64,000 nucleotides of DNA from Methanosarcina mazei S-6 (GTDB lineage: Archaea; Halobacteriota; Methanosarcinia; Methanosarcinales; Methanosarcinaceae), in contig NZ_CP009512.1 in the NCBI RefSeq assembly GCF_000970205.1, positions 3,162,001 through 3,226,000 on the forward strand. Reading direction: 5' to 3'. The stretch's first letter is position 1. Each line of letters begins with the position of its first letter. Shown piece by piece: positions 23,656 to 32,537 of the stretch. A program made the position numbers and the translations under genes. Below the pieces are notes generated by a model that was not told the DNA's origin, ran no database searches, and was given only the letters and a program-made list of their open reading frames with translations.

Positions 23656-23919
23656 TCAGAACTCTGCCTGTTTTTTGGCAGACTCCCTTTTTACAATTCT
23701 TGGAATTTTCCTGCCCCTGAAATTGATCCCGCCTGCAAGTGCTACCCCTTCTGTTTTTCGTATTAATTCGGCATAACTGCTGTCGAAGCTTGCAATGAGT
23801 GTTTTTCCTGCTACCATTTCAATCCGCCCCCCGGTTTCCAGAACCAATTTAAGGAGCTTCTGGACCTGAAAGGCTGTAGCATTATCTGTAACCTTTATAA
23901 GATACGTTTCAAATGGCAT
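23656..23919 (-). CDS. small protein of the PASTA cluster, predicted alpha/beta fold, unknown function
   Basis: This 87-residue soluble protein is not firmly recognised. Its pattern suggests beta-alpha-beta-beta-alpha-beta: ETYLIKVTD, a helix FQVQKLLKLVLETGG, strands RIEMVAGKTLIASF, a helix SYAELIRKTEG, and a final strand. This is compatible with the ferredoxin-like fold of inhibitor I9/subtilisin propeptides, but the likeness is weak. The C-terminal tail is basic. It starts 16 bases after the PASTA gene stop and is surely in the same operon. No signal peptide or membrane segment is seen. Confidence 0.75.
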   Translation of the reverse strand: MPFETYLIKVTDNATAFQVQKLLKLVLETGGRIEMVAGKTLIASFDSSYAELIRKTEGVALAGGINFRGRKIPRIVKRESAKKQAEF

Positions 23920-23934
23920 TGAAAAACCTGCAGA

Positions 23935-25524
23935 TCAAAGCTTAATCCTGGAAATTGTATTGCTGCGCAGCTGGGTCACAGGTGCCTGTTTTGAAACCCT
24001 AAGGCTGACTGGGACTGACAGATCAACTGCAGAGCCTGCACACGGATTCTGGCTTATAACTGTTCCTGCAGCAGCTGTAGAAACAGCTTCAGATACTGTT
24101 CCTGCTTTTATCTCCTGAGCCCCAAGTAAGGAGATAGCTTTTTCAAGAGGCATTCCGACAAGATTAGGAACCGGTTTAACTGAGGGCTCGGCCTGGGCTC
24201 GGACCTGAGGCTCTGCAGATGCTTTCACCTGAGTTTCTAAAGGCGCAGTCGATGGAGTTTCACCTGAAACTTTAAATGTAGTTTCAGGCTGCAGCTTTGA
24301 TGCGGTTTCGGATAAAATTTTATTTACAGGTTCTTTAGCAGCAGTTTCGGGAAAAGTATTCAAAGGCGCTTCAATAACTGATCCTATTTTCCCTGCTGAA
24401 ACTACGAGATCAATTTTTGAATTTTTTTCCACTTCAGCCCCGGGTTTAAGGCTCTGTGCAAGGACAATGCCCGGCTTCCCGCTGCTAACGAGCTGTTCCT
24501 TGATACTGCCAGGCAGGAGTCCGGATTTATCTATTAACTGCTTTGCGCTCTCAAGCTCAAGTCCAAGCAGGTTAGGGGCTTTAAAAACCGCCACCGAAAC
24601 CGTCAGGACAATTGCAGTGCCAACACTGACTTCAGAACCTGGAGGGAGGCTCTGTGCAAGGACTATGCCAGGGGTTTTATCAGAAGGTTTTTCTTTGACC
24701 CCTTCAAGCCTGAGCCGAGATTTTTCAATGAGAGCTTTTGCAGCTTCGAGACTGAGACCTGAGAAGTCCGGCACTTTTAATGAAATTATTTTCGAAATGA
24801 TAAGATCCACAGCTGCCCCCGGTGCTGCGAGGGAGCCTTCCGATGGGAGCTGGCCTATTACCGTGCCCTGGGAGGTGCTGCTTTCTTTTTCGAGAATCTC
24901 TCCTGCCTTAAAACCTGCCTCCTGAAGTTTGCTTTCTGCTTCTTCTTTTGAAAGCCCGACAAGGCCAGGGACTTCTTTACACGAGGCAATATCCGGCTTT
25001 TCAGGAACAGCTTTTAAAGAGAATTCTATTGTGCTGAGGTTTTCGGGACTGATAATATCGTCGGCTTCTGGCATCTGGAACCTCAGTTCCTCCCCTTCCA
25101 GAGCAATATTTGTTTTAAGGGTCACGTTCATACCGCTGACAAGGTACTTTGGACCTGACTGGATTTTCTTCAGTCCTTTATCCATTTCCGCAAGTGAGGA
25201 AGCAAAAGAGCTTACAAGGTTCGAAGAAGAAAGCACAGGCCTGCTCTTCTGTAAAATGGAGATTTTTGCTTCAAGTCCTGCTTTTTCATTTGAGAGCTTT
25301 GCCACCTGTGCTGCAAGACTGCTTTTTTCCCTTTCAAGGACAAGTTTTTCTCCAAGAACCTTATCCAGATTTTCCTTATAAGTAAGGGCTTCTTTCTGTA
25401 TGGATTGAATTTCTATTTCGGTATAATTCAATTTATTCAGAATGCTGGTATAGCTGCTGGCATCTATTGTCCCGGCTTTCCTGAAGGCTTCCAGGTTGCT
25501 CTTTATATCACCTATATTCGTCAT
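23935..25524 (-). CDS. coiled-coil protein with four PASTA repeats, no signal peptide
   Basis: This 529-residue protein has an N-terminal helical/coiled-coil region (about 30-95, rich in Glu, Lys and Leu) and a middle domain (about 100-175) with a helix LVSSFASSLAEMDKGLKK followed by beta-rich sequence. PASTA-type repeats begin near 184 (VPGLVGLSKEEAESKLQEAG), 249, 317 and 449. A low-complexity Ala/Glu/Pro/Thr linker lies at about 382-447. PASTA domains normally lie outside the cell on kinases or penicillin-binding proteins. Here there is no kinase, no transpeptidase, no signal sequence and no membrane helix. It has a strong GGGAGG ribosome binding site. Function unknown; probably an assembly or scaffold protein. 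Confidence 0.85.
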   Translation of the reverse strand: MTNIGDIKSNLEAFRKAGTIDASSYTSILNKLNYTEIEIQSIQKEALTYKENLDKVLGEKLVLEREKSSLAAQVAKLSNEKAGLEAKISILQKSRPVLSSSNLVSSFASSLAEMDKGLKKIQSGPKYLVSGMNVTLKTNIALEGEELRFQMPEADDIISPENLSTIEFSLKAVPEKPDIASCKEVPGLVGLSKEEAESKLQEAGFKAGEILEKESSTSQGTVIGQLPSEGSLAAPGAAVDLIISKIISLKVPDFSGLSLEAAKALIEKSRLRLEGVKEKPSDKTPGIVLAQSLPPGSEVSVGTAIVLTVSVAVFKAPNLLGLELESAKQLIDKSGLLPGSIKEQLVSSGKPGIVLAQSLKPGAEVEKNSKIDLVVSAGKIGSVIEAPLNTFPETAAKEPVNKILSETASKLQPETTFKVSGETPSTAPLETQVKASAEPQVRAQAEPSVKPVPNLVGMPLEKAISLLGAQEIKAGTVSEAVSTAAAGTVISQNPCAGSAVDLSVPVSLRVSKQAPVTQLRSNTISRIKL

Positions 25525-25561
25525 CTTGTTCCTCCCGGAAGAGCGTCTCCTTAAAAGGGCA

Positions 25562-25966
25562 TTATCCCTCCCTAACCTTTGAAGAGGCAGGTATGGACAC
25601 TATTTTTGCTTTGATGCAGCTTGAGCCCTGAACATCATAACTGTAAAGAGAGTTATAAGAGGCATTGAGAGGAGAAGCGTTGAGGACAGGCCTGTAGCCC
25701 CGGATCCGGTTTCTGGAGTCCCTTTCCTCTTCAAGCTTCACAGTTAGCGACATTTTGAGTTCAAGGTCTACCTCCGGGATATGATACCATGTAGCCTGTA
25801 TATCATATCCGCGGAGGGCTTTTTCTTCGTCAATTTCTATCTGGGTCTTTATGGAGTTCAGGTCAAGAGCCCGCTGGGTCTCAGCAACAGAACGCCCAAC
25901 TTCCCCCAGAAGCCTGGAAAGAGGGGTGATAAGTATTTCTCCGATTTCTTCCCCGTTGTTTGCCAC
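25562..25966 (-). CDS. hypothetical protein B, paralogue of the 26131-26751 product
   Basis: This 134-residue protein has no signal peptide or membrane segment. The N-terminal amphipathic segment ITPLSRLLGEVGRSVAETQR followed by ALDLNSI closely parallels residues 11-35 of the neighbouring 206-residue protein. The rest is beta-rich, with WYHIPEVDLELKMSLTVKLE resembling the EPRFYEFTESIIEVKMTITM part of that neighbour. The start is GTG with GGAG upstream. The PASTA gene follows 37 bases later. The layout recalls DUF2589-like proteins (N-terminal helix, then two beta-rich stretches), but that likeness is tentative. Function unknown. Confidence 0.8.
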   Translation of the reverse strand: MANNGEEIGEILITPLSRLLGEVGRSVAETQRALDLNSIKTQIEIDEEKALRGYDIQATWYHIPEVDLELKMSLTVKLEEERDSRNRIRGYRPVLNASPLNASYNSLYSYDVQGSSCIKAKIVSIPASSKVREG

Positions 25967-26130
25967 AATTACAACTCCTTTAAATAAGTTTCGGAATGAA
26001 TATGAAAAAACACATCAGTGCAGACATCATGCAAGAAGTATATTTAAAGCCTTACATGCCGCGACTGCAGTCAGAACCTCATATTAATTAAAACATCCTG
26101 ACTGCAGCAAGAAACATTTTACGGAAAATT

Positions 26131-26751
26131 TTAATTCGGGCTGGCTGGGGCAGCAGCCTTGACTGTCACTTTGGGAATTGTCCTCTCAGGGGCAGGGACA
26201 GGCCTCAGGGTTGTCCTCAACAGGCTTGTACCTTCTTCCTTGAAAGAATATTTTGAACTGTATTTTGCATTAAAAGTTGAAGTATAAGCAACGGTTGTTG
26301 TGTTTTCAATGCTCCCCTTGCTCTTTCCAAAGAGCAGTTTTGCAAGCCCTCCTGATTCCATGCTGCCGGTGACCTTTGATTCATTGGTCAGCTTAAACTC
26401 ACTGCCGTAAGTGAGCTCAGTTGACGATTCCCTCATCATGGTGATCGTCATCTTAACCTCGATAATAGATTCCGTAAATTCGTAAAAACGAGGCTCAAGC
26501 CCGTAAGTCAGAAGCGACATTGGCTGGTCATTAGTAACAACATCGCTCGCAGTAACGTTGCCGTCAGCGTCCGTTGTCTCTTCAATGTACATTACAACGC
26601 TTCCGGCATCAAGCTTTGTCCCTGCAAGGGCCTGTGCAACCTGCACGGAATTCATGTCCAGAGCCATCTGTCCCTCTGCAATCGCAAGGGCCATTTCTTT
26701 AATCATTTCCCCAAAAGGAACGTTCAATAGTTCCTGACCGACACTTACCAT
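26131..26751 (-). CDS. hypothetical protein A, first gene of the PASTA cluster
   Basis: This 206-residue protein has no signal peptide or membrane segment. The N-terminal helix carries LNVPFGEMIKEMALAIAEGQ followed by MALDMNSV. A beta-rich body follows (about 50-190), with long stretches of Ser, Thr and alternating hydrophobics, and a Pro/Ala-rich tail (APERTIPKVTVKAAAPASPN). The shared N-terminal motif makes it a paralogue of the next gene (25562-25966). The ATG has GGGG upstream. The family is not identified with confidence; a DUF2589-like relationship is possible. Confidence 0.8.
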   Translation of the reverse strand: MVSVGQELLNVPFGEMIKEMALAIAEGQMALDMNSVQVAQALAGTKLDAGSVVMYIEETTDADGNVTASDVVTNDQPMSLLTYGLEPRFYEFTESIIEVKMTITMMRESSTELTYGSEFKLTNESKVTGSMESGGLAKLLFGKSKGSIENTTTVAYTSTFNAKYSSKYSFKEEGTSLLRTTLRPVPAPERTIPKVTVKAAAPASPN

Positions 26752-27526: not shown

Positions 27527-28057
27527 TCACAGACCTTCTTTCTTACGCCCGAAGATGAAAACTAATCCAAGGATTGCTGCTACAGGGAGAGCAACGGTTG
27601 GGAACTCTGGAATCTGAGAGTTTACTGTCCTCGAAGCTGCTCCAAATTCAATACTAGTTTCAGATCCAGCTTTAATTGTAACAAGGTAACTTGCACCAGC
27701 CGGCCCATTATTGGTAAGTGTTATAACTCCTACATCAGTGTATGAGCTAGCGGTTGGGTGAAAATTCGGATGGACAAACCCAACAGTAATGTCAGTAGTT
27801 TTTGCTTCGGCAGGAGAACCAGCTTTTACTGCAACCGTAGAAGTATAAGGTAAATCCGTATCAACAGCTTCCTCTAAAATGCCTGTTCCTCTGAAGCTAA
27901 GAACTACAGATTGTCCAGGAGCCAAAGTTATAGGATTTGGTGCCTCTGCAGTACCTGCTGCATTCAAGAGACTTGGATCAAATGGAGCTGCCATTGCGGA
28001 TCCGGCCATACAGGCGATTAATAAACCGCTCACTATTAGTAACAAAATTTTCTTCAT
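27527..28057 (-). CDS. PEF-CTERM surface protein, 176 residues
   Basis: This secreted protein has an N-terminal signal peptide (about 1-23, MKKILLLIVSGLLIACMAGS then AMA) and a single beta-sandwich-like domain. Its C-terminal sorting signal comprises Pro-Glu-Phe at 150-152, a hydrophobic helix, and a basic end GRKKEGL. PEF-CTERM tails are recognised by archaeosortase C, which is expected to cleave and anchor the protein, often with a lipid. An artC gene lies at 34423-35259. The signal peptide and leader closely match those of the next PEF-CTERM gene (28806-29330). The role of the mature domain is unknown. Confidence 0.9.
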   Translation of the reverse strand: MKKILLLIVSGLLIACMAGSAMAAPFDPSLLNAAGTAEAPNPITLAPGQSVVLSFRGTGILEEAVDTDLPYTSTVAVKAGSPAEAKTTDITVGFVHPNFHPTASSYTDVGVITLTNNGPAGASYLVTIKAGSETSIEFGAASRTVNSQIPEFPTVALPVAAILGLVFIFGRKKEGL

Positions 28058-28805: not shown

Positions 28806-29330
28806 TCACAGCTCTTCTTTCTTACGACCAAATACGAAAACAAGTCCGATCAATGCTGCCACAGGGAGGGCAACGGTTGGGAATTCGGGAACTGATACAT
28901 TAACAGATTCTGCCGAATAAACAGAATATGATTTTGTAGTCGAATCCCCGGTAGATTCGGAATAGGTTGTTACGGTTACAGTCCCTGGCTTTGTTCCTTT
29001 TATGTACAGGGTTCCGCTATAGGTCTCTACTCCAGAGGTAAAAGAAGAACTTGAAAGAGATGTCCCAGAGCTTGCCCAGTTACCGGAACTGCCCACTGCA
29101 ACTGGAGAAGAGCTTTCAAGATATGCAAAAAGCCCGTCAGTCGCAGTAAGTGTTACATGGTATGTCCCTTGAGTGTTAATTCTTATACTTGTAGCGACGG
29201 AGGCTACAGAGTCTCCATCCGGAGTTATAGTTACGTCATCCGGTGTCAGTACGGTATTGCTGGCTCCTGCCGGCCCGGCGATACAGACTATCAATAAACT
29301 GCTCACTAATAGCAACAACATTTTTTTCAT
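28806..29330 (-). CDS. PEF-CTERM surface protein, 174 residues
   Basis: This secreted protein has a signal peptide (about 1-23) and a Ser/Thr-rich beta-sandwich domain, probably heavily glycosylated (for example SSSSFTSGVETYSGTLYIKG). The C-terminal PEF signal begins at about residue 148 (PEFPTVALPVAALIG...), followed by a hydrophobic helix and RKKEEL. The tail is almost identical to that of the 27527-28057 protein, while the middle domains differ. It is a likely archaeosortase C substrate. The strings of Ser/Thr fit a surface protein exposed to the glycosylation machinery encoded downstream. Confidence 0.9.
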   Translation of the reverse strand: MKKMLLLLVSSLLIVCIAGPAGASNTVLTPDDVTITPDGDSVASVATSIRINTQGTYHVTLTATDGLFAYLESSSPVAVGSSGNWASSGTSLSSSSFTSGVETYSGTLYIKGTKPGTVTVTTYSESTGDSTTKSYSVYSAESVNVSVPEFPTVALPVAALIGLVFVFGRKKEEL

Positions 29331-30113: not shown

Positions 30114-32537
30114 TCAGCCAGAATGGTCAACTATAAAAGTGGTGTTGCCTGTCATCTGTTCGGATTCCAGGTCATAACCATTTACCGATACTTTATGTTC
30201 TCCTTCGTTCAGTTCGGACTTAATTCTTGCTTTATAGTAGTAAGACCCGTCCGAGTATGTCAGATAGGTGACATTAACCGCTGGACTACCCGAGACTGAA
30301 ACTGAGGGTTTGGATTTTAAAGTGGTTGAGGGAGTAACGTTGATTTCCAGGTCTCCCTTATTTATGGTTCTGGGGGTAAGCTCAATTGTAAAGTTTGAAA
30401 TTGAGCGATCGACAAAGAGTTCATCGAGAGTGGAGACCGTATTTCCAAAGACATCCGTACACACAGCTTCTACTCTGAAGTAGTCTCCGTTCCTTGCAAT
30501 GTAATTACCCGTCCATGTAATGTTATCCGAAGTTGTCAGCTCGCAGGATTCGGACTCAAAACCGTCCCTTGTAACCAGGCATACTGCGGACTGGAGAGGC
30601 ACCGGATATGTTACATTAAAGGTTGTGGCAGTCTTGCAGGGGTTAGGGAAGATGTCCAGCATGACCCTGGGGGCGCCTGTGTAAATTTGAGTCCGGGCAT
30701 CAGGTTCCGGATGCTCAGGCTCTTCATTGCCTGCCCTATCAACAGCTCTTGAACGGAAGTAATAGGTCTGGTTATCCTTTCCGCTAAAGCTGGAAGAGTT
30801 ATCTGTTGTCTTTGAAATCCATGGCTCCCAGTTAACCCCGTCAGTGCTTGAGTCTATGGAATAATAAGCAATTCCAGAAAGGTCATCTGTCCCGTTCCAG
30901 GAAACCGTAAAGGTTTTGTTGTCCGTGAATGCCGGGAGCTCCAGCACACTTGAGGTTGGAGGTACGGTTTCGACAGTATTTGTCTCCGAAATATAAGCAG
31001 ATAGTTCTGAAAGAGGTTTAAAGGAAATTCTATCCCAGAAAACGTCAACAGGTACGATTTCACCCGGCATCTGCCTCAAACCGAATGAGAGGTTGTTCTC
31101 TCCTGCCTGAAGAGATACCGGAATTTCAAGGTGCTGCCACCCTTCCGCTTCGCTGACCCCGTCTGTCCACACGGTGTCTCCATTAACTGCAACGTATTTT
31201 AGCTGAGAGTCTTCCTTAGAAGTTAAGTTGAAGTTATCTATCACGTATGCCGAGAGCACAGCCATGGTGTCTTCATCACATGTTATATTTTGAGAGATTT
31301 CACCGGATTGCCCTGGCTGATCAAAAAGGCTTCCATTATAGGAGCTGCTTATTCTGTATGCGAGGGAGGAGTTTACTCCGGACCCACTTACATAAGAACC
31401 TGTTATATACTCAGTATTTGAAGTAAAGTTCCATATTTCTGAAGATTCCATCTCTCCATTTTTAATCACCGGAAGCGATGAGGCATCAGTGTACTTCTCA
31501 TCGACCAGATGAGTGAAGGTGTTATTATTATCCAAATAAAGATGGACAGACCTGTAAGAGAAATAATCCGGTTTCTCCTTAAAAAGAGCAAACTCAAGTT
31601 TGGACCTGTCATTTTTCAGGCTGTGACGCGTGTAAGTCAAATTCTTCTGCCATACCTCTCCGTCTTTCAAAGGAACATTAAGCTCCTGAATTACCTCCTC
31701 ATCGATTTTCATCTGGAGGATATAGTTTACACTCTGAAGCTCATGGTTTTCAATTCCTACTGTAACATTAACAGGAACATTGATGAAGCTCTCATCAGGA
31801 TAACCTTCGGCTTTTCCGTCGGGACCAAGGAGATAAAGCATGGTAAAAGTCTCCTTTTCCCGGGTCATCTTGGCGTATGCTAGCATTGCACTTGAGATAA
31901 TAATAGAGCCTATCAAAGCAATTACGAGAGCCTTTTCAATTTCCGGAGGCAGGGGCTTTTTTCTGGTATCAGCCCCTTTCCCTGTGATGGACGGGTACTT
32001 CAAACCCTTTGCTTTAACTTTGCTTTTTGACCTGTGAAAACGCCTGACTTCAACTGGAGAAGTCATTTCTTCAGGCTCTTCGGACTCTTCAGGCTCTTCA
32101 TCAACCTCATCAGACTGAATGGATTTTATGAATTCTTTTAATGAAAAAGAGAACTGCTCGCTTTCATCTTTTAATTTTCGTGTAAAAATTGCAAGAATAC
32201 TGAAGAAAGTCGTGATCCCAAGAATGGATATAACTATCGGGGCAGGGCGATAACCCCAGGGAAGCAGGCTTATTAAAAAGCCGTCAAAAACTGTAAGTAC
32301 AAGACTGAAGCCAACACTTAATGTAAAACGTTCTATCCCGCTGATTTCTTTATTACCAGGAAAGAGTGCGGATATAAAAGCATAACCGGGAACGAAAAAA
32401 AAGAGGGACAGCGCTACAGGAATTCTAAGAAATGTTTCATTGAATGGAGGAACAAGTACAAAAATAACTCCCAGACATGAAAGAATAGTAACTGCAAGCA
32501 AATCGTCTACAAAAACACATTTTTTTAAGTGTGGCAT
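30114..32537 (-). CDS. DUF1616 membrane protein with large extracellular beta-rich region
   Basis: An 807-residue protein. The N-terminal DUF1616 domain shows four membrane segments, at about 13-30, 37-57, 71-91 and 99-119. A charged cytoplasmic loop with Glu/Pro-rich EEPEESEEPEEM and basic stretches follows, then a fifth membrane segment near 200-222. The remaining 580 residues are external. They include a concanavalin-like stretch (about 330-500) and a fibronectin-III/Ig-like segment with PEPDARTQIYTG (about 540-615), then a final beta-rich domain. DUF1616 proteins occur beside archaeal glycosylation and polysaccharide genes, as here. Its precise role is unknown; surface-glycan anchoring or export is plausible. 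Confidence 0.8.
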   Translation of the reverse strand: MPHLKKCVFVDDLLAVTILSCLGVIFVLVPPFNETFLRIPVALSLFFFVPGYAFISALFPGNKEISGIERFTLSVGFSLVLTVFDGFLISLLPWGYRPAPIVISILGITTFFSILAIFTRKLKDESEQFSFSLKEFIKSIQSDEVDEEPEESEEPEEMTSPVEVRRFHRSKSKVKAKGLKYPSITGKGADTRKKPLPPEIEKALVIALIGSIIISSAMLAYAKMTREKETFTMLYLLGPDGKAEGYPDESFINVPVNVTVGIENHELQSVNYILQMKIDEEVIQELNVPLKDGEVWQKNLTYTRHSLKNDRSKLEFALFKEKPDYFSYRSVHLYLDNNNTFTHLVDEKYTDASSLPVIKNGEMESSEIWNFTSNTEYITGSYVSGSGVNSSLAYRISSSYNGSLFDQPGQSGEISQNITCDEDTMAVLSAYVIDNFNLTSKEDSQLKYVAVNGDTVWTDGVSEAEGWQHLEIPVSLQAGENNLSFGLRQMPGEIVPVDVFWDRISFKPLSELSAYISETNTVETVPPTSSVLELPAFTDNKTFTVSWNGTDDLSGIAYYSIDSSTDGVNWEPWISKTTDNSSSFSGKDNQTYYFRSRAVDRAGNEEPEHPEPDARTQIYTGAPRVMLDIFPNPCKTATTFNVTYPVPLQSAVCLVTRDGFESESCELTTSDNITWTGNYIARNGDYFRVEAVCTDVFGNTVSTLDELFVDRSISNFTIELTPRTINKGDLEINVTPSTTLKSKPSVSVSGSPAVNVTYLTYSDGSYYYKARIKSELNEGEHKVSVNGYDLESEQMTGNTTFIVDHSG

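Follow-up and report, generated by a model that had tools for sequence, protein, structure and literature searches.

Kaur et al. (2020, PMC7159879) named Trypco2 (PF19631) as a domain encoded next to trypsin-like peptidases in VMAP conflict systems, and another study terms it an adaptor domain (PMC10907252). In Archaeoglobus fulgidus, the genes AF0414-AF0417 are reported to be related to DUF2589 and up-regulated on lactate (PMC3949148), and the PASTA repeats of known kinases bind peptidoglycan fragments (PMC5786024). Here, we describe a four-gene module, P1 to P4, of Methanosarcina mazei S-6 (4.14-Mb genome) that shares features with each of these families and matches none of them as a whole. 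The window, meaning the whole 64,000-nucleotide stretch analysed (NZ_CP009512.1, positions 3,162,001 to 3,226,000), carries an archaeal ribosomal protein operon, and the minus-strand module is located upstream of uL3. A sequence-only reading of the window had proposed it as an undescribed system, and searches of the open-access literature on DUF2589, DUF4332, Trypco2 and archaeal PASTA proteins turned up no account of it.

That P1 to P4 travel as a unit and are not a chance group is clear from their distribution across 247 Halobacteriota genomes. The P1 profile found 23 genomes and a profile of the middle region of P3 (P3mid) found 22, every one of them P1-positive, the lone P1-only genome carrying a fragment near a contig start. 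P4 was present in 18 genomes, 17 of which had P1; what the remaining one holds is a remnant at a contig edge that includes a PASTA tail. Because P1, P3 and P4 co-occur almost perfectly, the genes cannot be said to occur separately, and the arrangement recurs in unrelated archaea and bacteria: P1-P2-P3-P4 at 23 loci, P4-P1-P2-P3 at six and a bacterial P2-P3-P1-P1 at nine. The first of these orders lies beside the ribosomal operon in Methanosarcina and Methanolobus and at unrelated sites in other families. All 16 genomes examined for cluster number had a single cluster holding all of their paralogues (2-7 per cluster). These results support the proposal of a system, one that is apparently undescribed.

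As the earlier reading had it, the four genes are minus-strand open reading frames (Table 1), and ratios of nonsynonymous to synonymous substitution (dN/dS) for P1, P2, P3 and P4 of 0.05, 0.08, 0.16 and 0.23 against genome G130, and of 0.04, 0.07, 0.18 and 0.29 against genome G044, mark all four as real genes. P1 and P2 are under strong purifying selection (0.04-0.08), P3 and P4 under a weaker one (0.16-0.29); the closest P1 matches among Methanosarcina records reach 93%. The same reading had called the group tight, which is true of P2, P3 and P4 (gaps of 37 and 15 bp) and not of P1, set 164 bp from P2, though the genes lie far closer together in other genomes (41 bp apart in locus L072, for example).

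We compared the proteins by profile-profile alignment with hhalign, using reversed and shuffled profiles and 16 unrelated families as controls. P1 and P2, which carry the predicted N-terminal motif as VPFGEMIKEMALAIAEGQMALDMNSV and TPLSRLLGEVGRSVAETQRALDLNSI, aligned at 99.9% (2.9e-31); on this profile evidence they are true paralogues, and the motif is more than an amphipathic helix devoid of profile similarity. P2 and P3 residues 82-182 aligned at 77% (2e-5) in one direction and 67% in the other, with scores of 30-32 versus at most 20.5 for the unrelated families; the control ceiling in these shared-domain comparisons was 25 for reversed profiles and 20.5 for unrelated families. The alignment pairs helix with helix (Y-x-I-P-E-V-x-x-E-L-K against Y-x-V-S-x-M-x-V-x-L-K) and last strand with last strand. 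AlphaFold models agree: in P1 a helix leads into beta hairpins, and P3mid combines a helix with four strands (H19-38, E45-54, E58-62, E65-69 and E84-92; predicted local distance difference test score, pLDDT, 78). By profile comparison, P1, P2 and P3mid were thus shown to hold one copy each of the same predicted small domain, as had been suspected from their layout.

The P1 model consists of a long N-terminal helix (residues 13-44), beta hairpins (residues 53-73 and 90-116/159-184) and a variable tip, with pLDDT block means of 83-94 over residues 11-100 and values below 50 at the tip. A25, Q28, D32, G84, P87, F89, Y90, F92, I97, E98, P184 and P186 are invariant in a 47-row alignment. In Pleionea, a 560-amino-acid P1 homologue (L178:5014-6696) carries an insertion of about 320 residues that interrupts its domain close to the tip of the hairpin. 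A likeness of the long hairpin to those of pore-forming toxins was rejected (E>0.3), and neither a sequence search of the PDB nor Foldseek against the PDB and viral models gave a credible match to a solved or viral structure.

The domain appears to be distantly related to the Trypco2 adaptors. P3mid aligned with Trypco2 at 85% (5.8e-6, 79 columns, score 35) and P2 at 58% (1e-4, 81 columns, score 30), while Trypco2 scored at most 14.8 with the 16 unrelated families. Among the open reading frames of four fresh loci, a P3mid hidden Markov model (HMM) built without Trypco2 matched four of four Trypco2 proteins, three clearly and the fourth at E=0.034, and one P2-type protein weakly matched the Pfam Trypco2 model (E=0.014, below cut-off). 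Trypco2 of VMAP and MoxR-vWA systems shares the helix-plus-strands layout and aligns over its full length; a Trypco2-TIG fusion protein from a myxobacterium recalls the P2 fusions described below. Annotated neighbours of the fetched Trypco2 genes include serine proteases, a MoxR ATPase and CHAT proteins, and one locus of our module has a CHAT gene nearby. Unlike those systems, the module lacks MoxR, vWA, VMAP and trypsin genes, has several paralogues per cluster and includes PASTA repeats and a coiled coil; in the window its neighbours encode ribosomal and small secreted-type proteins, and MoxR, vWA, VMAP and peptidase genes are absent there. The module is not a VMAP or MoxR-vWA ternary conflict system.

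The possible DUF2589 relationship raised in the earlier reading also gained support. P1 aligned with DUF2589 at 91% (1.2e-6), scoring 48.7 versus 24.9 for the reversed profile, 20.9 for the best shuffle and at most 18 for the unrelated families, and the DUF2589 Pfam model matched nothing in the M. mazei S-6 genome; P1 is homologous to DUF2589 at the profile level and falls outside the family as Pfam models it. Genomes that we infer to be Archaeoglobaceae carry three-gene DUF2589 clusters with adjacent paralogues, in which PASTA repeats, a coiled coil and P4 were not seen. Because the third protein of these clusters (loci L110-L116) aligns with P3mid at 54%, they may be a PASTA-less counterpart of the module. 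DUF2589 (16 genomes) and P1 (23 genomes) shared none of the 247 genomes, even inside one genus, a mutual exclusion that is suggestive only, as about 1.5 shared genomes would be expected by chance.

Outside the shared domain, P3 matches PASTA (PF03793) in four stretches (Pfam, E=1e-54), the number counted in the earlier reading. Across loci the repeats of P3-type proteins number 1 to 14, which fits a fast-evolving ligand-binding arm. In two genomes from a different genus of Methanosarcinaceae, the normal module is accompanied by giant extra PASTA proteins of 1324 and 1526 amino acids, with about 12-14 repeats (L065:11050-15024 and L066:6081-10661). No Pfam family was found in P1, P2 or P4, and single-sequence scans of Pfam, NCBIfam, PHROGs and PADLOC returned nothing beyond PASTA except coiled coils in PADLOC; the non-PASTA parts had no defence-system match there, and the PADLOC PD-T4-6 match spans PASTA repeats only. 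P4 is unrelated to the other three (hhalign <1%), and a suspected Inhibitor_I9 identity was unsupported (Pfam E=0.19 in one member only). P1 to P4 lack a clear transmembrane helix, the highest 19-residue Kyte-Doolittle mean (1.78) falling within a PASTA repeat, and from this we infer that they are probably cytoplasmic. The module resembles PASTA kinases and PASTA penicillin-binding proteins in these repeats only, having neither a kinase or transpeptidase domain nor a clear membrane anchor; as previously claimed, it holds no such partner for P3, and P3 is itself neither a PASTA kinase nor a penicillin-binding protein.

Table 1. Module genes and P3 domains, numbered from the first letter of the window.
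Feature	Position	Strand	Size	Description	Basis
P1	26131-26751	minus	206 aa	putative DUF2589/Trypco2-like superfamily	ORF list
P2	25562-25966	minus	134 aa, GTG start	P1 paralogue without long hairpin insertion
P3	23935-25524	minus	529 aa	coiled coil, shared domain, PASTA
P3 shared (Trypco2-like) domain	24979-25281	minus	residues 82-182	predicted helix and four strands	AlphaFold, hhalign
P3 PASTA repeats 1-3	24379-24978	minus	about residues 183-381	PF03793	Pfam
P3 PASTA repeat 4	23989-24189	minus	about residues 446-512	follows low-complexity linker	sequence reading
P4	23656-23919	minus	87 aa	alpha/beta; seen only with module

In a wider scan, restricted to two peptide patterns, 110 P1 relatives were confirmed among 84,980 species genomes. 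The archaeal ones are from Methanosarcinales, Methanocalculus, Bathyarchaeota and Halorubrum, and the bacterial ones from Aquificota, Syntrophaceae, Burkholderiales, Myxococcota, Clostridia, Spirochaetes, Fibrobacter, Chloroflexota, Gemmatimonadota and others, with the proviso that several of these genomes are metagenome bins whose taxon labels may be wrong. Three versions of the module were distinguished. Type A, that of the window, has the order P1-P2-P3-P4; in some archaea and bacteria P4 stands first (P4-P1-P2-P3). Type B, in Clostridia and others, consists of a DUF4332-P2-PASTA fusion, a coiled coil with P3mid, P1a, P1b, a variable disordered protein and two TPR proteins, so that PASTA sits in P3 in one type and in the P2 fusion in the other. 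Type C (Pleionea, Archangium and Gemmatimonadota) has up to seven paralogues per cluster and weak matches to Big_1-type Ig-like domains. A Sphaerotilus plasmid carries the module as five 'hypothetical protein' genes. At the head of large clusters lies a conserved protein of 360-380 amino acids (L178:3197-4315, L176:3031-4116 and L194:5662-6798) in which Pfam sees a weak likeness, below cut-off (E=0.0013), to the C-terminal domain of L7/L12, a ribosomal protein. In G111, a Methanosarcina genome that lacks the standard module, three genes form a divergent set (L079:5896-8235): one encodes a P1-like protein of 308 amino acids whose tail looks Ig-like, one a P2-like protein of 106 amino acids and one a protein of 243 amino acids with DUF4332. 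An AAA ATPase beside this set was judged coincidental. P1 fragments in other Methanosarcina genomes (G036:C1:3307041-3307238, G028:C85:109-309, G105:C9:117156-117419 and G070:C1:899669-899830) would fit a module that has decayed or is being lost there.

Enzymes that attack the cell envelope lie beside some of the bacterial modules. Across 14 bacterial genomes, three of 14 Amidase_2 genes lay near the module (20-kb windows) versus about 0.1 expected, and two of two DUF6765 genes directly adjoined it versus about 0.01 expected, with both families chosen after the loci had been inspected and both expectations derived by simple arithmetic. LysM-CAP and SUKH genes, the CHAT gene and a GH108 lysozyme with a holin were seen once each, the last pair, whose holin is of the gene transfer agent type, directly after the Pleionea cluster. 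After a Lachnospiraceae cluster, a 1578-amino-acid protein (L244:11971-16707) has an N-terminal stretch resembling HExxH zinc metallopeptidases (IAHEVCHLRRQ), and an amidase follows it. The sequence-only reading was correct and understated the case; neither this bacterial effector context nor the Trypco2 relation formed part of it.

We tentatively read P1 to P4 as a conserved, multi-subunit adaptor scaffold, related to Trypco2 and serving a conflict or effector-handling system, though we hold this with somewhat less than even confidence. The complex would probably assemble in the cytoplasm, where P1, P2 and P3mid would most likely come together through their shared domain as a hetero-oligomer. 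P3 would add the coiled coil and 1-14 PASTA repeats as multivalent ligand-binding arms, and P4 may be a small accessory subunit specific to the P4-bearing version. So built, the module could position, hold or release effectors; because the bacterial core, with its DUF4332, TPR and Ig-like parts, lies beside envelope-attacking enzymes, a role in effector handling is suggested. The archaeal form would keep the core with its effector unlinked, and its role is to that extent conjectural. A broader proposal is doubtful as a whole: that archaea and many bacterial phyla share a new class of machine, with 2-7 Trypco2/DUF2589 paralogues and PASTA arms, assembled in the cytoplasm, deploying envelope-attacking effectors and built without any phage-tail part.

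Several points weigh against the adaptor scaffold. The P3mid and Trypco2 links, with profile-profile scores of 54-85%, both lack sequence-level significance, and Pfam, run on 44 P3mid domains one sequence at a time, did not list Trypco2, so the relation is one of remote homology and not of membership by Pfam rules. The enzyme association involves few loci per family, with effector roles taken from annotations only, and assembly, ligand binding and toxicity are predictions. The archaeal loci have no linked effector, NTPase or peptidase, and they are surrounded by housekeeping genes (for ribosomal proteins, pyruvate/indolepyruvate oxidoreductase-type enzymes and aconitase), the oxidoreductase-type genes and aconitase having been rejected as partners because they are lineage-specific.

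The module could instead be a housekeeping cytoplasmic scaffold, related to stress, the envelope or the ribosome, in which PASTA repeats are protein-binding modules and conflict plays no part. The slow evolution of P1 and P2, the stable site beside the ribosomal operon in Methanosarcina and Methanolobus and the lack of any immunity gene or toxin seen in archaeal loci all suit such a scaffold. We nonetheless think it unlikely, since patchy presence and fragments within Methanosarcina suggest that the module is dispensable, other families carry it at unrelated sites, and bacterial loci adjoin hydrolases and SUKH-type genes.

Some bacterial modules, in adjoining lysis genes or envelope hydrolases, recall tailocins and extracellular contractile injection systems, and the module might form a particle or filament, assembled in the cytoplasm and not derived from phage, that lysis sets free and that brings wall-binding PASTA repeats, Ig-like domains and enzymes to other cells. 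Parts such as PASTA, Big_1-like domains and LysM typically occur outside the cell, yet no membrane anchor shows in the core proteins of the window; 2-7 paralogues per cluster would suit a multi-subunit particle, and in Pleionea the lysozyme and holin genes come directly after the cluster. Tube, sheath, baseplate and PAAR genes, however, were not seen among annotated neighbours, a holin occurs at one locus only and the fold searches were negative. P1 had no homologue in 50,697 phage records (INPHARED) or in IMG/VR, where P2, P3 and P4 were not searched, and a phage origin was rejected for P1. Such a particle is improbable in our estimation. Least probable of all is a cytoplasmic sensor of muropeptides or cell-wall fragments, in which PASTA would bind the fragments, as in the kinases introduced above, and P1 and P2 would relay the signal: wall amidases do neighbour the module in three bacterial genomes, but Methanosarcina has no murein and still carries four PASTA repeats, and no kinase, penicillin-binding protein or transcription regulator was found in the module.

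Elsewhere in the window, two minus-strand genes (27527-28057 and 28806-29330) encode small secreted proteins with a C-terminal PEF-type sorting signal (VPEFPTVALPVAAI...RKKE). The pair adjoins a gene for a DUF1616 membrane protein (30114-32537) and is conserved next to the module in a number of genomes of Methanosarcina and its relatives.

With these results, genes that had stood as undescribed hypotheticals become a defined module that archaea have in common with some ten groups of bacteria, and DUF2589, Trypco2 and two unnamed families may be joined in one proposed superfamily. PASTA repeats gain a context without a kinase, a penicillin-binding protein or a cell wall. For Trypco2-type adaptors more generally, the module offers the hypothesis that they assemble with paralogues and, so assembled, may serve effectors.

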